Shown here: piece by piece, positions 5,657-35,994 of the stretch
How the letters are laid out: the number at the start of each line of letters is the position of its first letter
Numbering within the stretch: position 1 is the stretch's first letter
Assembly (NCBI RefSeq): GCF_000372865.1
Contig: NZ_KB889965.1
Span: 3,741,786-3,805,785, forward strand
Length of the DNA stretch: 64,000 bases
Direction: 5' to 3'
Origin: Methylosarcina fibrata AML-C10
GTDB lineage: Bacteria; Pseudomonadota; Gammaproteobacteria; Methylococcales; Methylomonadaceae
Made by a program: the position numbers and the translations under genes
Notes under the pieces: generated by a model
What the model was told of the DNA's origin: nothing
The model's database searches: none
Seen by the model: the letters and a program-made list of their open reading frames with translations, nothing else

Positions 5657-6685
5657 ATGGCGGCAAACGAAACACTGCAGGATATCAAATCGAGAGGGGT
5701 ACTTTGGGGCTTTGGCGTTTTTATTGTTACGACATTAACCGTTATCCTGATTCTGGGCGCGTGGTGGGGCGGTGAGCCCGAGCAATTCAATATTCAGGAA
5801 GAAGCCCTGGAGCGGGCGAAGATAACGAAGACCACGGATATCCCTTTGGGCTATACCTTTACCAATACTCTGGCCCATATTGCCGAAGTGCTCCTGCATA
5901 AATCCGGCGGCTATATCACCAACGACGTGGCGCCTCCCGGCTTTTTCCTCGACAACATTTCCAGTTTCGAATACGGCGCCCTGGTGATGCTGCGCGACGC
6001 CACCTCGGCGTTAAGAAACCACTTCGCCCGGGACCAGTCCCAATCGGACGAAGATCCTGATCTGAAGGTAGCCGAACCTTATTTTTATTACGAAAACGAT
6101 TCCTGGGCGCTGCCTTCGACCGAAGCCGAATATCAAAAAGGCGTGGACGCGCTGCATGAATACATGTCGCGTCTGCAAAAATGGGGCGGCAAGGTCAAGC
6201 GGGCGCAATTTTATGCGCGCGCCGACAATCTCTGGCAATACACCGAAGTGGTGATCAAACGGCTGGGCAACCTGTCGACCCGGCTCAGTGCCAGCACGGC
6301 CGGCGCCGAAATCATTCCCGGCCTGACCGTGATCGAGCCCGAGGCCAACATCCGCAATCCCAAGGCGGCCGCCGTGGCCCAGACTCCCTGGCTGGAAATC
6401 GACAACGTATTTTACGAGGCCAGAGGTTCCAGTTGGGCCCTGCTGCATATCCTGAAAGCAATCAAATACGACTTTCACGACATTTTGCTGGATAAACGCG
6501 CGATGAATACGGTCGATATCATGATCAAGTCGCTTGAAAACGCCATGGCGCCGATTCTGAGCCCGATGATTTTAAACGGCAGCGGCTACGGGCTATTTGC
6601 CAACTATTCATTGACCATGGCGACTTATATCGCTCGCGCGAACGCTTCCGCTCTCGATTTGCGCGACATCATGAACCGAGGCTAA
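5657..6685 (+). CDS. DUF2333 family membrane-anchored protein
   Basis: A 342-residue protein of the DUF2333 family, found mainly in proteobacteria, with no established function. One transmembrane segment is visible at about residues 15-36 (VLWGFGVFIVTTLTVILILG), leaving a large domain presumably in the periplasm. The remainder is rich in Trp and charged residues, with no enzyme motif I recognise. The downstream DUF4389 gene starts 10 nt after its stop, so the two are probably cotranscribed. Confidence 0.85.
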   Translation: MAANETLQDIKSRGVLWGFGVFIVTTLTVILILGAWWGGEPEQFNIQEEALERAKITKTTDIPLGYTFTNTLAHIAEVLLHKSGGYITNDVAPPGFFLDNISSFEYGALVMLRDATSALRNHFARDQSQSDEDPDLKVAEPYFYYENDSWALPSTEAEYQKGVDALHEYMSRLQKWGGKVKRAQFYARADNLWQYTEVVIKRLGNLSTRLSASTAGAEIIPGLTVIEPEANIRNPKAAAVAQTPWLEIDNVFYEARGSSWALLHILKAIKYDFHDILLDKRAMNTVDIMIKSLENAMAPILSPMILNGSGYGLFANYSLTMATYIARANASALDLRDIMNRG

Positions 6686-6695
6686 TGAACACGCT

Positions 6696-6995
6696 ATGGA
6701 CGAACAAATCAACTACAACCTGACCAACATCGATACCTGGAAAAGAATTTTCTTCATGCTGATCTTTGCCGCCATCGGCGCGTTGGTCAGGATGCTGCTC
6801 TGGGCCGTGATATTTTTGCAGGTGGCGACCGCCCTGCTGACCGGCAAGGCCAACAAACACATTCTCAACTTTGGCCGCGGCCTGTCCATCTACACCTACC
6901 ACATCATGCTGTTTTTGACCTTCAATACCGAGACGCTGCCTTTCCCGTTTTCGGAATGGAATCAGACGGCGGAGCTCAAGCTGCCCGATAAATAA
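6696..6995 (+). CDS. DUF4389 domain membrane protein
   Basis: A 99-residue protein with two hydrophobic stretches (about 19-48 and 65-77) and the DUF4389 pattern: RMLLWAVIFLQVATALLTGK, then NFGRGLSIYTYHIMLFLTF and FPFSEWN. It is likely an inner-membrane protein of unknown role. It follows the DUF2333 gene by 10 nt. ATG at 6696 fits the spacing; no longer start is possible without overlapping the previous gene substantially. Confidence 0.85.
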   Translation: MDEQINYNLTNIDTWKRIFFMLIFAAIGALVRMLLWAVIFLQVATALLTGKANKHILNFGRGLSIYTYHIMLFLTFNTETLPFPFSEWNQTAELKLPDK

Positions 6996-7040
6996 GGCGA
7001 GAGGGGACGGATGACAGGATGCGCTTCGAGCGCAGCAGGC

Positions 7041-7622
7041 TTATTCGTCCTCGTCCCGTCCTTCTTCCGCTTCCATCGTTTCCTCAGCCTGACCGCTCAC
7101 CAGTTCTTTCAGATAACGATACAGCAATCGGGAGGATTTCGGCGGTTTCATTGCCGCCGCTTCCTTTTGCGCATTTCGCACCAATTGGCGTAAATGCTGA
7201 CTGTCCGCAGCCGGCATCTGATCGAGCAGTTCGGCCAGGTCGTCGTTATTGCCCTGAATCAGCCGGTCGCGCCAGCGCTCGGCCAGATGATGCTCGCGGA
7301 TGCCGTGGGCGCTCTGGTTTTTGATCCGCGCCAGTTTTTCCAGTATCGGTTCGACCTCCGTCTTGTGAAGCTGGCCGGCAATGTATTTCAGCAATCGCTT
7401 TCTTGCTCCTTTGTGCGGCATTCCTGCCACTTCGAGCGCCGATTTGCGGACGTTCTCCGGAAGATCAAAGGTATCCAGCACGACCGGAGACAATTTCGAG
7501 AGTTCCTCTCCCAAATCAAACAGCGCGGCGATTTCTTTCTTGATCCGGGTTTTATTCGGTCTTACTGCATAATATTCGACTTCGTCGTCTTCTTCGTAGT
7601 AATAATCTTGTTCTTCATTCAT
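7041..7622 (-). CDS. darP: Ribosome-associated protein DarP (YjgA, DUF615)
   Basis: A 193-residue acidic-tailed protein of the YjgA/DUF615 family, a ribosome-associated factor implicated in late 50S subunit assembly. Seen: RPNKTRIKKEIAALFDLGEE near residue 21, the highly conserved KGARKRLLKYIAGQLHK, and NQSAHGIREHHLAERWRDRL. Both termini are very acidic (MNEEQDYYYEEDDEVEY; EETMEAEEGRDEDE). Length and motif order match the family. It stands alone on the minus strand. Confidence 0.93.
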   Translation of the reverse strand: MNEEQDYYYEEDDEVEYYAVRPNKTRIKKEIAALFDLGEELSKLSPVVLDTFDLPENVRKSALEVAGMPHKGARKRLLKYIAGQLHKTEVEPILEKLARIKNQSAHGIREHHLAERWRDRLIQGNNDDLAELLDQMPAADSQHLRQLVRNAQKEAAAMKPPKSSRLLYRYLKELVSGQAEETMEAEEGRDEDE

Positions 7623-7668
7623 TTCGTATTAAACCATCGTAGTGGTACAAATTGATCCTTTTGCAGTC

Positions 7669-8196
7669 CTACTTTACCACAGACGGCAGGATCGCTCGCC
7701 ATGCCTCCAGTTTTTCTCCGAAATTCAGCGAGGCATGGGCCGGACTGGTGGAAGGGAGGCGTCTGTAGTCCAGGTAGTCAAAGCGAGAAGGCAATCCGGG
7801 CAGAACGTATTTTTTGTAAAAGCCGGCAGCCATGCCGCCGTTAAAGAATACTTGCCGGATGGACGGGAATTGTTCAAAAAACAGAGCAAAATCGTTCACC
7901 CGGATCGATGCCGGTGCGATATTGGCGTCCAGGCTGCCTTGCCTCCGGCAGCTTTGCAGCACGTCCCAGACGGCAATCCCTTGATCGGTCAATATCTTTT
8001 TTCGAAGCAAATAATCGAGACGGTAATCAAAACCGAACAATTCTCCGAGGATTGGCCAGAATGCGTTTTGGGCGTGGCCGTAATATTGTCTTTTTTGCAA
8101 GGAGGTAATGCCGGGCATCGATCCCAGAATCAGAAGATGGGGATTGCCGGCGACGATAGGCGGGAAACCTTCTATGTCGGAAAGGGCGTTCTTCAT
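7669..8196 (-). CDS. Mug/UDG-superfamily DNA glycosylase (hypoxanthine-type)
   Basis: A 175-residue member of the uracil-DNA glycosylase superfamily, close to the family-6 hypoxanthine-DNA (deoxyinosine) glycosylases. Motif 1 is visible as LILGSMPGITSLQKRQYYGH followed by NAFWPIL, with the DNA-contact region NGGMAAGFYKKY and the C-terminal motif LPSTSPAHA. These enzymes excise deaminated bases to start base-excision repair. Substrate specificity (hypoxanthine versus uracil or thymine mismatch) is inferred from motif similarity only. It is divergent from rdgC, with 73 nt between start codons. Confidence 0.8.
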   Translation of the reverse strand: MKNALSDIEGFPPIVAGNPHLLILGSMPGITSLQKRQYYGHAQNAFWPILGELFGFDYRLDYLLRKKILTDQGIAVWDVLQSCRRQGSLDANIAPASIRVNDFALFFEQFPSIRQVFFNGGMAAGFYKKYVLPGLPSRFDYLDYRRLPSTSPAHASLNFGEKLEAWRAILPSVVK

Positions 8197-8269
8197 AAAT
8201 TACTTTAACTATAAAGCGCTAAATTTGGGATAATATACAGCCGTTTTTTATTTGGATATCAACAACAGC

Positions 8270-9181
8270 ATGTGGTTTAAAAATCTGAGCATTTTTCGTC
8301 TTACCGAAGCTTTTACGTTAACGCCGGATGAGTTGGAAGCAAAGTTGCAGGCTTTGGCTTTCCGTCCCACGGGGCCTCACGAAGAGTTCAGCTTCGGCTG
8401 GACGCCGCCTTTAGCCAAGGCGTCGAATCCTTTAGTGCACAGCAGCAACGGTTTTATGATGCTGTGCGGTAAAAAAGAAGAAAAAGTTTTGCCCACCGCC
8501 GTAGTGAACGAGATGGTTCAGGAGAAAATCTCGGACGCCGAGGAGAAACAGGGTCATAAATTATCCAAAAAAGAGCGTTCCGCGATAAAGGATGAACTGA
8601 TCTTCGAATTATTACCCAAGGCTTTCACGTTTTCACGCAAAACTTACGCTTACATCGATCCCAAAGGCGGCTGGCTGATCGTCGATGCAGCATCGGCCAA
8701 AAGCGCCGAGGATCTGCTCAGTCATCTGCGCAAATGTCTGGGCTCGTTGCCCGCCGTTCCGCTCAGCACGGTGGAAAATCCGAGCCTCGTCATGACCGGC
8801 TGGCTTCTGAATGACCAAGCCCCGGAGGACATCGTCATCGAGGACGAATGCGAGTTGCGCTCGCCCGGAGAAGAAGGCGGCATCATCCGCTGCAAGCGCC
8901 ATGATCTGGCAGTCCCCGAAATCAAAAACCATCTTGATTCGGGCAAACTCGTCATTAAACTGGCGGTGAAATGGGCGGATCGCCTTTCTTTCGTGATGGA
9001 CGAGCATCTGGCAATCAAGCGGGTGCGTTTTCTCGACCTGATTCAGGATCAGGTCGCCGAGGTGGATGCTGAAAGCGACGCCGAGAGGTTCGATGTCGAT
9101 TTTTCGATCATGTCCCTGGAGCTGGCGAGTTTTCTGCCGCGCCTGCTGGAACTGTTCGGAGGAGAAAATCCGGCTTCGTAA
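8270..9181 (+). CDS. rdgC: Recombination-associated protein RdgC
   Basis: A nucleoid-associated, ring-forming DNA-binding protein that limits RecA activity. The gene encodes 303 residues, the length of the E. coli protein. The start at 8270 gives the family-typical MWFKNLSIFRLTEAF; an in-frame TTG at 8252 would add six non-conserved residues. Other family blocks seen are AFTFSRKTYAYIDPKGGWL and DRLSFVMDEHLAIKRVRFLD. An AT-rich stretch with TTAACT and GATAAT spaced 18 nt lies just upstream as a possible promoter. It ends at a strong terminator shared with the convergent lipoprotein gene. Confidence 0.95.
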   Translation: MWFKNLSIFRLTEAFTLTPDELEAKLQALAFRPTGPHEEFSFGWTPPLAKASNPLVHSSNGFMMLCGKKEEKVLPTAVVNEMVQEKISDAEEKQGHKLSKKERSAIKDELIFELLPKAFTFSRKTYAYIDPKGGWLIVDAASAKSAEDLLSHLRKCLGSLPAVPLSTVENPSLVMTGWLLNDQAPEDIVIEDECELRSPGEEGGIIRCKRHDLAVPEIKNHLDSGKLVIKLAVKWADRLSFVMDEHLAIKRVRFLDLIQDQVAEVDAESDAERFDVDFSIMSLELASFLPRLLELFGGENPAS

Positions 9182-9216
9182 GCTTCGGTAAACGGTTGAA
9201 GACGCTTGGCCCAAAT

Positions 9217-9254
9217 AAAAAAGCCCGAGCCGGTAAAACCGGTTCGGGCTTTTT
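9217..9254. terminator. Bidirectional rho-independent terminator, rdgC / lipoprotein gene
   Basis: AAAAAAGCCCGAGCCGGT, a 4-nt AAAA loop, then CCGGTTCGGGCTTTTT: a long GC-rich stem with an A-tract on one side and a T-tract on the other, so it can work for both convergent genes. Confidence 0.92.
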
Positions 9255-9277
9255 CATGCGGGAAAAGCAATGATGAA

Positions 9278-9556
9278 TTATTTCATCATGGATCTTTTAA
9301 ACATGTTGTCCAGTTTGCTGTTGGTGTCTTGCGCGTATTGAGCTGCACGGTTGGCGGCAGCTTCTGCAGCAGCAGCTTTTGCTGATGCGTCGTTAGCGGC
9401 GGATTGAGCAGCGGCAGCATCGGAAGAAGCTTGGGCAACCGAAGTTTTCAAGCCGTCAATTTGTGACTGTAAGTTCTCTATGTCACCGTTAGTTGCACAT
9501 CCAACAGCCAGGCTTGCAACCAGAGCAATCATCGATAATTTAACTATTTTTTTCAT
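9278..9556 (-). CDS. Murein lipoprotein-like alanine-zipper protein (Lpp/OprI type)
   Basis: A 92-residue lipoprotein. The signal peptide ends in a lipobox LAVGC (Cys at about 20). The mature part is an alanine-rich heptad coiled coil (ASSDAAAAQSAANDASAKAA and following) as in Lpp and OprI, ending in a C-terminal Lys (FKRSMMK) like the residue used for covalent attachment to peptidoglycan. Expected role: trimeric tether of the outer membrane to murein. A good ribosome site (AAAGGAAAA) precedes the ATG. The neighbouring minus-strand gene is an L,D-transpeptidase, the enzyme type that makes this linkage. The cross-link itself is inferred. Confidence 0.85.
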   Translation of the reverse strand: MKKIVKLSMIALVASLAVGCATNGDIENLQSQIDGLKTSVAQASSDAAAAQSAANDASAKAAAAEAAANRAAQYAQDTNSKLDNMFKRSMMK

Positions 9557-9604
9557 CTTGTTTTCCTTTTGTTAACAGTTATAAAAAACATTACACCTGA
9601 AGAA

Positions 9605-9613
9605 ATTATAGCA
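9605..9613 (-). promoter_or_regulatory. Extended -10 promoter of the Lpp-like gene
   Basis: On the minus strand this reads TGCTATAAT, a consensus extended -10 element (TGnTATAAT). It would start transcription near 9598, leaving a leader of about 40 nt. No good -35 is needed for this class. Strong expression would suit a structural lipoprotein. Confidence 0.6.
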
Positions 9614-9635
9614 TAATCTTAAACAAATTCCATGG

Positions 9636-10178
9636 CTACTTAATTTTTACTAAAGTCCCAGGCTCCACCCACTGGCTTAGGTGGTCGATCTGGCTGTTGG
9701 TCATGGCGATGCAGCCGTGAGTCCAGTTCATGCTTTTGTGAATTTTTGCGTCGGCCCGGCCCAGACCGTGAATGCCGATCTGTCCGCCCAGCGCCGTATT
9801 TTGCGGCGGCACGGCATGGTAGCGATGGGCTTCCACTATCCGTTTGTAAGTGTATTTGTCGATCAATCCCTTATGCAGAGCCAACTCGGCGTTTTCCGCG
9901 GAAGGATAGTTCAAGCCGAAAAACCGGTGGAAGGAACTGCGTTCACCGATCCAGCCGATCCGGTATTCCCCGTGCGGCGTAATATTGTCGCCCCGATGGG
10001 TTTTAATGCCGGCTCCGCCCCGACCGATGGCAATGTCGTTGATGGTGTCCAGGGTTTTCTCACCTTTTTTTACCTCGATTTTAAGGGCCGTCGTATCGAT
10101 CAGCAGCCAAATATTTTCATCTGCCGACGTGATAATGGAAAAACAAACACAAAACAAGAACAAGAAAATGCGCAACAT
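9636..10178 (-). CDS. L,D-transpeptidase (YkuD domain), exported
   Basis: A 180-residue protein with an N-terminal signal sequence (about 1-19) and a YkuD catalytic domain. The catalytic signature is clear: IGIHGLGRADAKIHKSMNWT followed by HGCIAMTN, supplying the His and nucleophilic Cys. These enzymes form 3-3 murein cross-links or attach Lpp-type lipoproteins to meso-DAP. The adjacent Lpp-like gene suggests the second role, but this is inferred from position. No LysM or other cell-wall-binding domain is present. The lipoprotein gene has its own promoter in the 79-nt gap. Confidence 0.88.
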   Translation of the reverse strand: MLRIFLFLFCVCFSIITSADENIWLLIDTTALKIEVKKGEKTLDTINDIAIGRGGAGIKTHRGDNITPHGEYRIGWIGERSSFHRFFGLNYPSAENAELALHKGLIDKYTYKRIVEAHRYHAVPPQNTALGGQIGIHGLGRADAKIHKSMNWTHGCIAMTNSQIDHLSQWVEPGTLVKIK

Positions 10179-10240
10179 GGGATCTACACTGAAAAAGAAT
10201 TTTGGTGTATTTTAGTTCTTCCGGTTAATTCTCGCACTAA

Positions 10241-11884
<1,644 letters not shown>

Positions 11885-30406: not shown

Positions 30407-33400
30407 ATGTCCATTCAACACGAACGCCTCCGTTCGCTGATCGAATTCGTTCAGTCCTCCGCTAGGCTGCGCAGCCGCCTGGTAACGGACGTCGCTCAGC
30501 ACAATCTCTTTCATGCGCATGAAAACGAGATCGCCTGCCTGCCTGGGCTGCATTTCGCCGAATCGGAAGGAGATGCTTGGCTGCGCGTGGAACGCTTGCA
30601 GGAAATTCCTCCACCGCCGCCGGAGAGCGGGCTGCTGCAAGCCTGGCTCGACTTGAGCCCTCATCCCGGGCGGGAACCCGAATTGCGCCGGCAGATCGCC
30701 ACAAACTCTCCGACGCCGGCCGGAGCCGTGCCGGTTTCCGGCGATGGCCCGGCTGCCGTTGCCGCAGAAATCGTTTTTCTGGAAGCCTGTGACCTGCGTT
30801 CTCAGGTGGAGGCCGAATTTAAAGTGTATTTCGAGACCGTGTGGAAACCCTGGGCCGTCGTAGAAAAGCAAAGGAGGCGAACGATGTCGCTCTATGCGCA
30901 ATTGTTCACGCTGAAGCAGCGGCTCGAAGGCGCCATCGCCGACAGTCCGGTCGAGCTGGTTTGGGGGGTGGGCCACGCGCTCTGGCGGGAGGCCGGAGCG
31001 CAATTGAGCTATCCCCTGCTGACGCAGCCGGTGGAGCTGATTCTCAACGAAAGAACGATGGCGATTGAAATCCGTCCGCGCGAGGTCGATCCCGGGATCG
31101 AACTGGATTTTTTCGCGGCGGCCAACAAGCCGGGCGTGCCCGCGCTGGAAAAAGCCGCCGCCGAATTCTTTAAAGAACCACCGGCTGTCTTCTCGCCGTG
31201 GGATCCCGGTTCGTTCGAACCGCTTCTGCGCACCGCGGTAACGCATCTGGATCCTTCCGGCAGCTACTGGCCCGGGCAGACCGCCGCCGAGGACCGGTCG
31301 CTGCCTCCGGCGGACGATCGGCTCAAGGTGACCGATACCTGGGTCTTGTTTGCGCGTCCCCGCAATGCCAGTTTGCTGATTCAGGATTTGGAGCGTTTCA
31401 AGGCGGCCATCGACGACATCGGAACGCTGCCTCCGGCGCTGTTTGCGCTGCTTTCCGATCCTTCGGGCGAGAATCCCGAAATTTTTCTCCCTGCCTTTCG
31501 CGGCCTGTCGATGATCCAGGGCAGCGGCGGCGAGATCCGGGATTTGTTCTTTCCGGCCGCGTTCAACGACGAACAGGTCCAGATCGTGCAAAAACTTCAG
31601 GCATACGACGGCGTCGTGGTTCAAGGTCCGCCCGGAACAGGCAAAACTCATACCATCGGCAACATCATTTGCCATTGCCTGGCGCTGGGACAGCGCGTGC
31701 TGGTGACCTCGATGAAAGAGCCGGCGCTGACGGTGCTGAAGGAAAAGCTGCCAGAACGGATCCGGCCGCTGGCGGTCAGCTTGCTGACGGCCGAGCGCGA
31801 CGGCATGAAACAGTTCGAGTATTCGATTGCGAAAATCGCTTCGGAAATTCAAGGCATCGACCGCCTGGCAACGGCCCGGGAAATCGACCGGATCGACGCC
31901 GCGATCGGCAATTGCCATGCGCGCCTTGCCCGGATCGATGCCGGGATCGGCGCGCTGGCCGCCAATCATCTTGGCCCGTTCGAGCTGGACGGAGAACTTG
32001 TCGAGCCGCGCGATGCGGCCGCCGAAGTCTCCGCCGCCCGGAGCTCGGTCATACGGCTGGACGATGCCGTTTCGATAAGTCCCGAATTCCGGCCGCGTTT
32101 TACCGACGCCGACATGTCAAAGCTGCGCGAAGCCAGGCGAACCTTGGGACAGGATCTGGAATATTTAGGAGTCGGCCTGCCGCAAATGGCCGCGTTCCCG
32201 GATTCCAGGGAATTGCTTCGCGCGCATCAGGATTTGTCGCGCTGCGCCGAACTCAAGTCGCAAGTCGATAACGGCCGCGTTTCGGCCCTGGCCGATGCAT
32301 CCGAAGCGACGCTGGCGGCGGCGGAGCAGCTCTATCGGGAAATCGAAGAGCTTCAGGCGTTGCGCAAGTCGGTCGCGGATTCCGCCCTGCCCTGGACCGA
32401 GGCGATGCTGCGGGCCCTTCGCGATGATCCCGACAACGAGCTGCTGAGCCTGTTCTCCGACCTGGCGGACGGGTTCGATGCGGAGTTCGCCGGACGCCGG
32501 CGTTTTTTGGCGAAGCCGGTGGAGCTGGGCAGTGACGGCGACGACCGCAATGAGGTGCTGCTGGGCGCGATCCAGCGCTCGGCCGAAGGCAAAAGCCCGT
32601 TCGGGATAACGGATCTGCTCGGGAAAAACGCCGAAAAAGCCAGCCTGAAGGCGATCCGCGTGGACGGACATCCTCCTGCAGGAAACGAGGATTGGCGTCA
32701 TGCGCTCGACTTTGTCCGCCATCGCCGCGCTTTGCGTACTCTGCTTACGCGTTGGAACAATCTGGCTCTGGAGTTCCGGCTGCCGCAGTTGGCGGTCGAG
32801 CCCGCCCAGGCGCCGGTTTTGTCGGAACGTCTCGGCCATTATCGAAGCCTCAAAACCATCGTATCGCTGGAAAGCCGTGTTGCCGGCGCCGCCAAACGAG
32901 TCAGCCCGTCCTGGTCGCATGCCGAAACGGCCGCGCTCACCGACGAGATTCTAGGTGAGCTGCAACAATGGTTGTCGCACCATCTGATGCAGAACCGTCT
33001 GGCCGGAGCCTGGGCCATGAAGGAACGGTGCCAGCAATGGCTGCACGGCTGCGGCGGCGGCATTACCGAAGCCCTCCGCGGGTTCGTCGAACGGACCTTG
33101 GGCGACCCGGCCGTTGCCGAGGCCGATCTGCAGGCGCAGTGGTCGGCCCTGCTCGAGGAACTGCGCCGAATTCACGGCTTGAAGCCGCTGCTGGACACTG
33201 TCGAAAGCGGCGCCCGGCTGATCGGCGAGTCGGGAGCGCCGCGCTGGGCCGAACGGTTGAAAACGAAACCCGCCGGGGAAACCGATCCGCTGTTGCCCGA
33301 GGACTGGCGGAAAGTATGGCGTATCAACCGGCTGGCCAATCATCTGGAACAAATCGACGGGCGCGACGAACTGAAACGCCTGGCCGGAATGCGGACCGAG

Positions 33401-35026
33401 CTCGAATCGGAGCTGGGGCGCGCGTACCAGGATGCGGTGGCGCTGCGCACCTGGCTGAATCTGGCGGAAAACGCTTCGCCCGGCGTCAAGGCGGCGCTTC
33501 AGGCCTATCTCGCCGCGGTCGTGAAAATCGGCAAGGGCAAAGGCAAAAGAGCGCCGATGTATCAGCGGCAGGCCAGGCACGCAGCCATGCTGGCGAGCCC
33601 GGCCATTCCCTGCTGGATCATGCCGCATCACCGCATTTCCGAATCGCTGCCGGCCGAATTCGGCAGTTTCGATCTGGTCATTATCGACGAGGCCTCGCAA
33701 TCCGACTTGTCGGCGCTGCCGGCGATTTTCCGAGCCAACCAAATTCTGGTGGTCGGGGACGACAAGCAGGTCTCGCCCGAAGGCGCGTTTCTCGACAGCC
33801 AGTCGATTCAGAATCTGACGCAGCGTTTTCTGAGCAACCATTATCTTTTGTACCGCGACCAGATGGGGCCCGACCGCTCGATTTACGATCTGTTCAAGGT
33901 CGTGTTCGCCGCTTCCGCGACGATGTTGAAGGAACATTTCCGCTGCGTCGCGCCGATTATCGAATATTCCAAACGCGAAGTGTACCGGCACGAGCTGAAG
34001 CCGTTGCGCCTTCCGAAGGCTTCCGAGCGGCTGGATCCGCCGCTGATCGACGTCTTCGTCGAAGACGGCATCCGCTTGCCGAACGACGACGTCAACCCGG
34101 GCGAAGCCCACTTTATCGTCGAGGAAATCAAGGCGATCGTCGAGAATCCAGAAATGGCCCACCGGTCGATCGGAGTGGTGTCCCTGCTCGGCGACAAACA
34201 GGCGCTCAGGATCTGGGAAATGCTCAATGACGACGATCTCGACGCAGACGGTCGGCCGCAAGGCCTGTCGCCCGAGCTCATCGACCGGCACCGGATTACC
34301 TGCGGCGATGCCCGCACTTTTCAAGGCAAGGAGCGGGACATCATGTTTTTGTCGATGGTGGTTTCCAGGGGCAACGCCAGTGCCCTGGCCCGGGACACGT
34401 TTGCGCAGCGTTTCAATGTCGCGGCGTCCAGGGCGCGGGACCGGATGTACCTGGTCCGGAGCATTGCGCCCGACGATCTGAGTCCGGCCGACAAGCTGAG
34501 GCGTCATCTTATCGATCATTTTGCCAAGCCTTTCGCCCGGGAGGAAAGGCCGGTGAAAAATCCGGAAGATCTGTGCGAGTCCGATTTCGAACGGGAGCTG
34601 TACGACTTCCTGACCGGGCGCGGCTACCGGGTATTGCCCCGGGTGCAATTCGGCGGACAAGATTCCGGAGCCCATGAATTCCGCATCGATCTGGTCGTTG
34701 AAGGAAACGGGGACAACCGGCTTGCGATCGGGTGCGACGGCGACCGGTTGCACGGAGCGGAACGCTGGGACGACGAGATGCGCCGGCAAAGAATTTTGGA
34801 GCGCGCCGGCTGGCGTTTCTGGCGCTGCTTTGCCGCCACCTTCCTGATGAACCGGGAAGCCGTGCTTGCGGATCTGCTCGAAACGCTGACCGCTCTGGGC
34901 ATCGAGCCGGGCGGAAAGGACGAAGGCGGTCCGGGTCTGTACAGCGAACATCGCCGGTATTTAGCCTTTCCACACGAAACGGCCAGTCTGGCGGACGGCA
35001 AGTTGCCGTCGGGCGATGCCGCCTAG
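30407..35026 (+). CDS. SF1 (Upf1-like) helicase fused to a PD-(D/E)XK / DUF559-type nuclease
   Basis: A 1539-residue cytosolic protein. The N-terminal ~390 residues have no domain I recognise. Walker A is QGPPGTGKTHTIGN (about 406-415). A long, helix-rich insertion of about 600 residues follows. The second helicase half carries Walker B LVIIDEASQSDLSALP (about 1089), VVGDDKQVSPEGAF (about 1115), LKEHFRCVAPIIEYSKR, GDARTFQGKERDIMFLSMVV (about 1302) and FNVAASRARDRMYLVRS (about 1336), the DEAS-box pattern of Upf1-like SF1 enzymes. From about residue 1395 a Vsr/MTES_1575/DUF559-like domain begins (FERELYDFLTGRGYRVLPRV), with FRIDLVVEG, IGCDGDRLHGAERWDDEM and RQRILERAGWRFWR. This architecture occurs in defence-associated proteins; antiviral function is inferred. 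Confidence 0.85.
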   Translation: MSIQHERLRSLIEFVQSSARLRSRLVTDVAQHNLFHAHENEIACLPGLHFAESEGDAWLRVERLQEIPPPPPESGLLQAWLDLSPHPGREPELRRQIATNSPTPAGAVPVSGDGPAAVAAEIVFLEACDLRSQVEAEFKVYFETVWKPWAVVEKQRRRTMSLYAQLFTLKQRLEGAIADSPVELVWGVGHALWREAGAQLSYPLLTQPVELILNERTMAIEIRPREVDPGIELDFFAAANKPGVPALEKAAAEFFKEPPAVFSPWDPGSFEPLLRTAVTHLDPSGSYWPGQTAAEDRSLPPADDRLKVTDTWVLFARPRNASLLIQDLERFKAAIDDIGTLPPALFALLSDPSGENPEIFLPAFRGLSMIQGSGGEIRDLFFPAAFNDEQVQIVQKLQAYDGVVVQGPPGTGKTHTIGNIICHCLALGQRVLVTSMKEPALTVLKEKLPERIRPLAVSLLTAERDGMKQFEYSIAKIASEIQGIDRLATAREIDRIDAAIGNCHARLARIDAGIGALAANHLGPFELDGELVEPRDAAAEVSAARSSVIRLDDAVSISPEFRPRFTDADMSKLREARRTLGQDLEYLGVGLPQMAAFPDSRELLRAHQDLSRCAELKSQVDNGRVSALADASEATLAAAEQLYREIEELQALRKSVADSALPWTEAMLRALRDDPDNELLSLFSDLADGFDAEFAGRRRFLAKPVELGSDGDDRNEVLLGAIQRSAEGKSPFGITDLLGKNAEKASLKAIRVDGHPPAGNEDWRHALDFVRHRRALRTLLTRWNNLALEFRLPQLAVEPAQAPVLSERLGHYRSLKTIVSLESRVAGAAKRVSPSWSHAETAALTDEILGELQQWLSHHLMQNRLAGAWAMKERCQQWLHGCGGGITEALRGFVERTLGDPAVAEADLQAQWSALLEELRRIHGLKPLLDTVESGARLIGESGAPRWAERLKTKPAGETDPLLPEDWRKVWRINRLANHLEQIDGRDELKRLAGMRTELESELGRAYQDAVALRTWLNLAENASPGVKAALQAYLAAVVKIGKGKGKRAPMYQRQARHAAMLASPAIPCWIMPHHRISESLPAEFGSFDLVIIDEASQSDLSALPAIFRANQILVVGDDKQVSPEGAFLDSQSIQNLTQRFLSNHYLLYRDQMGPDRSIYDLFKVVFAASATMLKEHFRCVAPIIEYSKREVYRHELKPLRLPKASERLDPPLIDVFVEDGIRLPNDDVNPGEAHFIVEEIKAIVENPEMAHRSIGVVSLLGDKQALRIWEMLNDDDLDADGRPQGLSPELIDRHRITCGDARTFQGKERDIMFLSMVVSRGNASALARDTFAQRFNVAASRARDRMYLVRSIAPDDLSPADKLRRHLIDHFAKPFAREERPVKNPEDLCESDFERELYDFLTGRGYRVLPRVQFGGQDSGAHEFRIDLVVEGNGDNRLAIGCDGDRLHGAERWDDEMRRQRILERAGWRFWRCFAATFLMNREAVLADLLETLTALGIEPGGKDEGGPGLYSEHRRYLAFPHETASLADGKLPSGDAA

Positions 35027-35040
35027 TTTCGCCAAGGTTG

Positions 35041-35994
35041 ATGCCCATGAACGTGACGGCAAAAATGATCACGGTGACCGTCAATACGGCGATCGATCTG
35101 TTTCTCGAAGTCGAAGGTATGGGGCGGCGGGACAATCTCATAGCCAACAGCAGTGCCGAGTTTGTCTGCGGCAAGGGCATTAACGTCGCCAGGACGATCG
35201 AGTCCCTGGGACATCCTGTCCTTTGCCTGGGATTCGCGGGGAAGCAGTCGATGCCTCTGTTCGAGGCGGCGGCGTCCCGAGGGCTCAGGACCGATCTGAT
35301 CGCCGTCGAGGGCAAGACCCGCACCAATCTCACCCTGCTCGATACGCAGGCTCGCCGGGAAACTCATATCCGGACTCAGGGTTTCAGCGTGACCGCCGAG
35401 GACTGCCGGAAACTGGCCGAGAAACTGGACGCCAGCGCCGCAGCCGGCGACATCGTGATTTTTTCCGGAAGCCTTCCGCCCGGAGCGCCCCGGGATTTGT
35501 ACCGGAGCCTGATGGACCGTTGCCGTCGGCGCCGGGCCACGGTCATTCTGGATACTTCGGGTTCGGGTCTTCACGAAGGCTTGAAAGCCGAACCTTATCT
35601 GATCAAACCCAATCGTCAGGAGCTCGAGGAAATCGCCGGGAGAGCGCTTCCGGATGACCGGGCGCTCGTCGGCGCAGCCCGTACCCTGATAGATCAAGGC
35701 GTAACGTGGGTTTATGTCTCCTGCGGAGAAGAAGGCCTTGTGGTGGTCGGCAGAGAAACTGCGATCAAGGCGTCGGTCAACGGCGACTTCGGCCGCGTGG
35801 TCAGTACCGTCGGCTGCGGCGATGCGATGGTCGGAGGACTGGCCGTGGCTCTCTTCGATGGTCTGGATCCTGCGGAAACGATCCGGATCGGAATCGCTTG
35901 CGGCATGGCCAACCTGTATTCCCGGGAGCCCGGAGCCATTGACCGGGCCAGCATGGCGGAAATAATGAATCATGTCGAAACGAGTCCGTTGTGA
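35041..35994 (+). CDS. PfkB-family hexose kinase (1-phosphofructokinase-like)
   Basis: A 317-residue sugar kinase of the ribokinase/PfkB superfamily, nearest in look to 1-phosphofructokinase and tagatose-6-phosphate kinase. Seen: the opening TVTVNTAIDLFLEVEGMGRR, signature 1 GKGINVARTIESLGHP, FSGSLPPGAPRDLY, and signature 2 VVSTVGCGDAMVGGLAVALF. The catalytic Asp is kept, but the usual GAGDS reads GCGDA. Starts at 35041, 35047 or 35062 are possible; a longer reading from 34732 is internal to the helicase. It begins only 14 nt after the helicase stop, so cotranscription is likely. Phosphotransferase partners are not visible here. Confidence 0.82.
   Translation: MPMNVTAKMITVTVNTAIDLFLEVEGMGRRDNLIANSSAEFVCGKGINVARTIESLGHPVLCLGFAGKQSMPLFEAAASRGLRTDLIAVEGKTRTNLTLLDTQARRETHIRTQGFSVTAEDCRKLAEKLDASAAAGDIVIFSGSLPPGAPRDLYRSLMDRCRRRRATVILDTSGSGLHEGLKAEPYLIKPNRQELEEIAGRALPDDRALVGAARTLIDQGVTWVYVSCGEEGLVVVGRETAIKASVNGDFGRVVSTVGCGDAMVGGLAVALFDGLDPAETIRIGIACGMANLYSREPGAIDRASMAEIMNHVETSPL

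Follow-up and report, generated by a model that had tools for sequence, protein, structure and literature searches.

A solo SF1B helicase-nuclease of a putatively defensive, horizontally mobile family, with a probably impaired nuclease, in Methylosarcina fibrata AML-C10

The locus and its surroundings

The window, i.e., the whole stretch of 64,000 nucleotides analysed here, carries on its plus strand a complete gene for a single protein of 1539 residues with an Upf1-like SF1 helicase (Table 1), as the first-pass annotation had described it: the open reading frame is intact and the two helicase parts were recognized by the Pfam models AAA_11 (residues 386–450, 5e-14) and AAA_12 (residues 1168–1350, 8e-12). 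A minus-strand gene annotated by Pfam as a class-3 lipase flanks it on one side, and its stop codon is separated by 20 nt from the start of a PfkB-family kinase gene on the same strand (window positions 35026–35047). Because of this short gap and the shared strand, co-transcription of the helicase-nuclease gene and the kinase gene may be possible. The farther flanks encode, according to Pfam, a serine dehydratase, a TPR protein, a CsgG-like protein and a sulfate permease.

The 56 other open reading frames of the window were scanned with PADLOC, which returned only a GlgB-type match and one weak candidate match, and the window is therefore without a defence island. The candidate match was to PDC-M44A (3e-13, one open reading frame). 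Neither a partner methylase nor another restriction-modification (R-M) gene was present among the Pfam-annotated flanks, and no R-M family was returned by the PADLOC scan of the window, which agrees with the earlier description of housekeeping flanks without a methylase, BREX, CRISPR or restriction partner. The composition of the gene gave no signal of recent transfer (GC3 of 0.74 vs 0.61–0.73 in its neighbours), and no terminal repeats or target-site duplications of at least 10 bases were found around it. Orthologs of the pfkB and lipase genes lie in other gene contexts in relatives than in the window; the genomes compared included no second one of the window's genus. Elsewhere in the same genome (G000:C1:1422647-1425287; L050:8321-11297) a remnant of a second, distant helicase-nuclease was observed, which consists of a 417-aa helicase-end and a 186-aa nuclease-end open reading frame with an IS5-family transposase between them.

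Table 1. Features of the helicase-nuclease gene (window positions)
Feature	Position	Strand	Basis
Solo SF1 helicase-nuclease open reading frame, complete, 1539 aa	30407..35026	+	ATG to stop; full-length homologs
N-terminal region, residues 1–375; beta-rich core after long helix (131–175)	30407..31531	+	Without Pfam match; AlphaFold pLDDT 75.5
RecA1, first part; Walker A GPPGTGKT (residues 407–414, bases 31625–31648)	31532..31786	+	Pfam AAA_11; invariant in all homologs
Insertion of ~590 residues inside RecA1, stalk-like	31787..33556	+	AlphaFold model m38ee5e9c0aec; location with respect to motifs I and II
RecA1, second part; motif II DEASQ (33686–33700), motif III GDDKQ	33557..33886	+	Homolog alignment
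RecA2 (AAA_12); motifs V and VI, FQGKERD and VAASRARDR	33887..34486	+	Pfam; homolog alignment
C-terminal MTES_1575 (Vsr-like) nuclease, degenerate in window copy	34586..34888	+	Pfam 1.4e-24; predicted fold; relative-rate excess
Asp1428 of RIDLVV, conserved catalytic position	34688..34690	+	Homolog alignment
Gly1442, codon GGG; Glu in 27/27 other aligned homologs	34730..34732	+	Homolog alignment

Domain architecture and relation to known systems

The structure was predicted using AlphaFold with 12 sequences, and the model has a mean pLDDT of 74 with a low pTM of 0.42. Motifs I, II, III, V and VI together with the fold identify the motor as an Upf1-like SF1B helicase, and the Foldseek matches of the helicase were to IGHMBP2, SETX, Upf1 and Dna2 (E-values from 6e-7 to 4e-4). 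The insertion of about 600 residues that had been noted between the helicase halves is present at nearly that size, but its placement needs correction: it falls between motif Ia and motif II (DEAS at residues 1094–1097) and is thus inside RecA1, where Upf1-like helicases carry their 1B/stalk insertion. Nearly all of it was predicted to be helical, and several of its helices reach 30 or more residues. Fold searches with the N-terminal region, which the first-pass annotation had considered a possible sensor, gave no match in the PDB at E ≤ 0.001 and no significant match in BFVD.

The C-terminal domain had been proposed to be Vsr/DUF559-like, of which the Vsr-like part holds, since the REase MTES_1575 model (PF18741) matched residues 1394–1494 with 86.4 bits against a gathering cutoff of 38.2, and DUF559 matched at 0.07 only. 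The order of its predicted elements, alpha-beta-beta-beta-alpha-beta, is that of a PD-(D/E)XK nuclease, in which Asp1428 falls on the second and residue 1442 on the third strand. Structure prediction, suggested earlier as a check, thus returned a nuclease fold rather than none.

The best PADLOC model for the protein was PDC-S37, a candidate single-gene system (2e-56; 189.6 bits in two stretches, partial), with which it shares an SF1 helicase with a large insertion and an MTES_1575 nuclease in one protein. However, proteins of the window subfamily reach 190–255 bits compared with 1218 for a genuine member (L105), the first ~290 model positions are unmatched even in homologs of the subfamily with long matches, and the N-terminal region of the window protein is unrelated or too diverged, with DUF4011 not detected. 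PDC-S37 was rejected as the identity of the protein on the grounds of the partial match and of a score far below that of genuine members. Hhe, a DUF4011 anti-phage protein (PADLOC and NF042953), has a homologous SF1 helicase core and MTES_1575 nuclease, and a profile comparison using hhalign aligned the window subfamily with DUF4011 proteins over most of their length (E-value 2e-57), which confirms shared descent. The window protein nevertheless reached 136.9 bits where the cutoff is 2000, compared with 1811 bits for a genuine Hhe of the same bacterial family. It had no Pfam match to DUF4011 at E ≤ 1, whereas the Hhe and PDC-S37 members of the same bacterial family matched that model at 4e-39 and 6e-46; the hhalign match between the N-terminal segment and the DUF4011 region of Hhe-type proteins was weak and non-significant (E=0.079). 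The C-terminal DUF3320 of Hhe is absent as well; it is present in one homolog (L035) and weakly in another (L004). With DUF4011 not detected and the score far below the cutoff, identity with Hhe was also rejected.

Among NCBIfam models the best match was the anti-phage protein ProA (NF058533), which covers residues 379–1497, yet with 183.8 bits against a cutoff of 1500. The MTES_1575 giants (HEPN-transglutaminase-SF1 helicase-Vsr-wHTH) described in a 2013 survey of HEPN proteins (PMC3710099) are methylase-free and were predicted to act as solo defence genes independently of modification. Like them, the window protein combines an SF1 helicase and a Vsr-like REase and lacks a methylase, but neither HEPN nor transglutaminase was detected in it, and the winged-helix DUF3320 occurs only in some homologs. 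Mokosh (MkoA, MkoC) has a related SF1 helicase domain; the match covers the helicase only, and the nuclease of the window protein is of the MTES_1575 type instead. Druantia DruE (PMC13192584) resembles it in its working, as a large helicase-nuclease effector on replication intermediates, but has an SF2 helicase, a PLD nuclease and a partner sensor. In summary, the subfamily is not resolved by PADLOC or NCBIfam, lies together with Hhe, PDC-S37 and ProA in a superfamily of single-protein defence systems, and appears to be distinct within the kind already predicted by the 2013 survey (PMC3710099). A literature search on PDC-S37, ProA and Hhe returned nothing useful, and no phage-resistance experiment was found in the literature for the window subfamily.

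The nuclease of the window copy

The family motif hh-E-[C/L]-D-G-D-x-[Y/F/W]-H reads AI-G-CDGDR-L-HG in the window copy. When 28 homologs were aligned, the 27 other intact sequences, which range from Streptomyces to Fusobacteriota, all had Glu at residue 1442, where the window has Gly, and an aromatic residue at 1448, where the window has Leu. Although D1428, D1444, H1449 and the RQR-LER-GW motif are kept, the complete D...E-x-D-G...H set of MTES_1575 is broken by Gly at the place of Glu1442. The first-pass annotation had taken the nuclease core (FRIDLVV, CDGDRLHG) to be intact, which these two replacements contradict.

The changes are concentrated in this domain. At columns that are invariant in 16 other sequences the window copy has five private changes, four of which (Q1412R, E1442G, D1457E, S1477A) fall into the nuclease of about 100 residues (Fisher p=0.003). 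Relative-rate counts of private changes were made for the window copy versus its closest relative, the homolog in genome G135, with four outgroups. For the nuclease they were 15/1 with outgroup L085, 11/2 with L004 and 13/2 with L066, compared with balanced counts for the rest of the protein (110/92, 108/119, and 107/89, respectively). With the fourth outgroup, L086 from a viral contig, the N-terminal region and the insert were asymmetric too; the test may have been upset by recombination on the sister's branch, and the rate argument therefore rests on L085, L004, and L066. The asymmetry seen only with this outgroup suggests recombination between the lineages of the G135 homolog (L005) and L086. 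In the analysis of dN/dS by domain the synonymous sites were saturated.

We infer that the nuclease of the window copy is relaxed while the helicase core stays constrained. With an invariant Glu lost, a relaxed nuclease and a conserved helicase core, the present allele is most likely nuclease-impaired, and its nuclease probably weakened or dead. Residual activity is possible because D1428, D1444, and H1449 remain, and because Vsr itself is not known to have an acid at the position equivalent to Glu and holds its metal without one. The invariance of this Glu in the 27 other aligned homologs suggests that it matters in the window's family. The consensus sequence could be in error at the codon of residue 1442, since a single change from GAG to GGG would suffice, but the other private nuclease changes make such an error unlikely as the whole story.

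According to one alternative the window copy would be a fully active standalone defence effector in which Glu1442 is dispensable and the site needs no more than Asp1428, Asp1444, and His1449, as in Vsr. The retention of these residues and of the RQR-LER-GW motif, the intact reading frame, the MTES_1575 score well above its cutoff and the conserved helicase core all speak for it, but it is rather unlikely given that the Glu is invariant across such distant hosts and that three of the four outgroups place the surplus of private changes in the nuclease and nowhere else.

Another alternative is that selection acts on the motor alone, which would block or remodel its substrate by ATP-driven translocation, with the nuclease fold retained to bind nucleic acid. 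The helicase motifs are fully conserved and only the nuclease is relaxed, as expected from such a protein, and a viral-contig homolog (L094:63-3440; left out of the 28-sequence alignment) has a destroyed nuclease motif (AIKCIGTSEG); the Glu, the Asp and the His of its site are gone, a loss that is independent of that in the window copy. We nevertheless regard this alternative as improbable, since early decay predicts the same pattern and a single close relative is at hand for comparison. Only slightly less improbable is a version in which the nuclease is off and the motor under selection, ATP-driven roadblock or remodelling of invading DNA being the effector, and in which sensing falls to a new N-terminal module that has no relation to DUF4011.

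Distribution, defence neighbourhoods and putative function

Near-full-length open copies were found in 10 of 201 genomes of the same bacterial family, the window included (about 5%), and in three of 368 other genomes of the class; in addition, 24 plasmid records hold copies that cover at least 80% of the query. Among further copies in same-family genomes two are cut by contig ends and one, in G082, is broken (L049, helicase gene at 6345–11193) and is a pseudogene with frameshifts and a stop, i.e., copies decay in this family. In the phylogenetic tree the closest relative, the G135 homolog (L005; 63–64% identity), is the sister of the window copy, and the pair is nested in a clade that also contains two viral contigs and a Nitrospirota MAG (50–54% identity). 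The other same-family copies (36–41% identity) belong to distant clades with plasmid copies from Variovorax, Microvirga, and Acinetobacter. As the window copy and its sister group with viral contigs and the Nitrospirota MAG, apart from the same-family copies, the family spreads horizontally, and it is sparsely distributed; the universal vertical conservation that would speak against a defence role did not emerge.

In G135 the homolog (L040:9037-16371) is the sole gene between cbiG and a cbiJ/methylase fusion gene of the cobalamin operon, at an occupied site of about 5.0 kb, and has a GC3 of 0.38 compared with 0.61–0.67 in most adjacent operon genes. In four genomes of G135's genus the site is empty, cbiG and cbiJ being 129–178 bp apart with nothing between them. 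From the lone gene in G135 and the intact empty sites elsewhere it follows that the helicase-nuclease gene moves, and is maintained, with no partner. No terminal repeats or target-site duplications of at least 10 bases were found at the G135 insertion. The insertion splits the operon between cbiG and cbiJ.

Known defence genes lie near homologs in many contexts. On Acinetobacter plasmids homologs are located directly 3' of brxL (BREX), and on sphingomonad plasmids they follow immediately 3' to a type III R-M pair, in one case with AbiE; others are near HsdR and HsdS of a type I R-M system (G093), near type I R-M on a Fusobacteriota plasmid, and, in G405, adjacent to an integrase and Abi_2 and not far from an OLD-type gene. 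On a Variovorax plasmid DUF4194 and AAA genes ~4 kb from the homolog were read as a Wadjet-like cluster. The association that the first-pass annotation had suggested looking for is therefore seen, as a pattern and not as an enrichment statistic; about half of the homolog contexts examined, the window's included, show no known defence gene.

Some homologs have a small gene immediately upstream, namely a 65–85 aa RHH-like protein on two Variovorax plasmids and a MerR/excisionase-like HTH gene on two viral contigs (kinds read from the sequence), and a gene annotated as PC4/YdbC-like on the Fusobacteriota plasmid. Four of these five genes (L036:11729-11986, L037:11789-11986, L092:5618-5977, L093:5618-5977, L102:9327-9554) overlap the start of the homolog by 4 nt. 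A constant partner gene was rejected, as these genes differ in kind and the window has none.

These contexts bear on two further alternatives. The positions directly 3' of brxL and of type III R-M genes would fit a protein that serves BREX or R-M systems as an accessory subunit and is not a system in its own right, but the adjoining system varies by lineage and the gene is solo in both G135 and the window, so that we give this explanation little credence. A host repair enzyme of the Dna2 or RecB kind, and not a defence gene, would be consistent with the fold match to Dna2 and with homologs that often lie among housekeeping genes; presence in only about 5% of same-family genomes, copies on plasmids and viral contigs, the pseudogene in G082 and the repeated proximity of BREX, R-M, and Abi genes make it improbable.

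The proposal of a standalone defence effector, as put forward in the first-pass annotation, accordingly stands for the family (a single gene with no constant partner, a sparse and horizontal distribution, defence neighbours and a solo insertion) and falls for the intact, active nuclease of the window copy. Our preferred reading, to which we assign a probability of roughly 0.62, is that of a solo, horizontally mobile defence SF1B helicase-nuclease with a nuclease that is impaired in the present allele. In the putative mechanism of the family, an Upf1/Dna2-like motor would load onto the single-stranded nucleic acid of an element that is invading or replicating, translocate 5'-3' by analogy with SF1B enzymes and pass the strand on to the Vsr-type PD-(D/E)XK nuclease at the C-terminus, which would cut it. 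The N-terminal region, together with the helical stalk, may gate the loading. No methylase would be needed, since the protein would be triggered by a structure or state of the nucleic acid rather than by a modified site. The window allele would then represent either a defence gene that weakened recently or a motor whose main mode of action is now ATP-driven translocation or blocking.

The analysis outlines a subfamily of methylase-free single-protein helicase-nucleases that is not told apart from Hhe and PDC-S37 by PADLOC or NCBIfam. The occupied and empty cobalamin-operon sites provide a clean natural experiment in which the gene moves alone, and with a natural active-site variant and its active-looking sister the need for cutting, as opposed to translocation alone, becomes testable.
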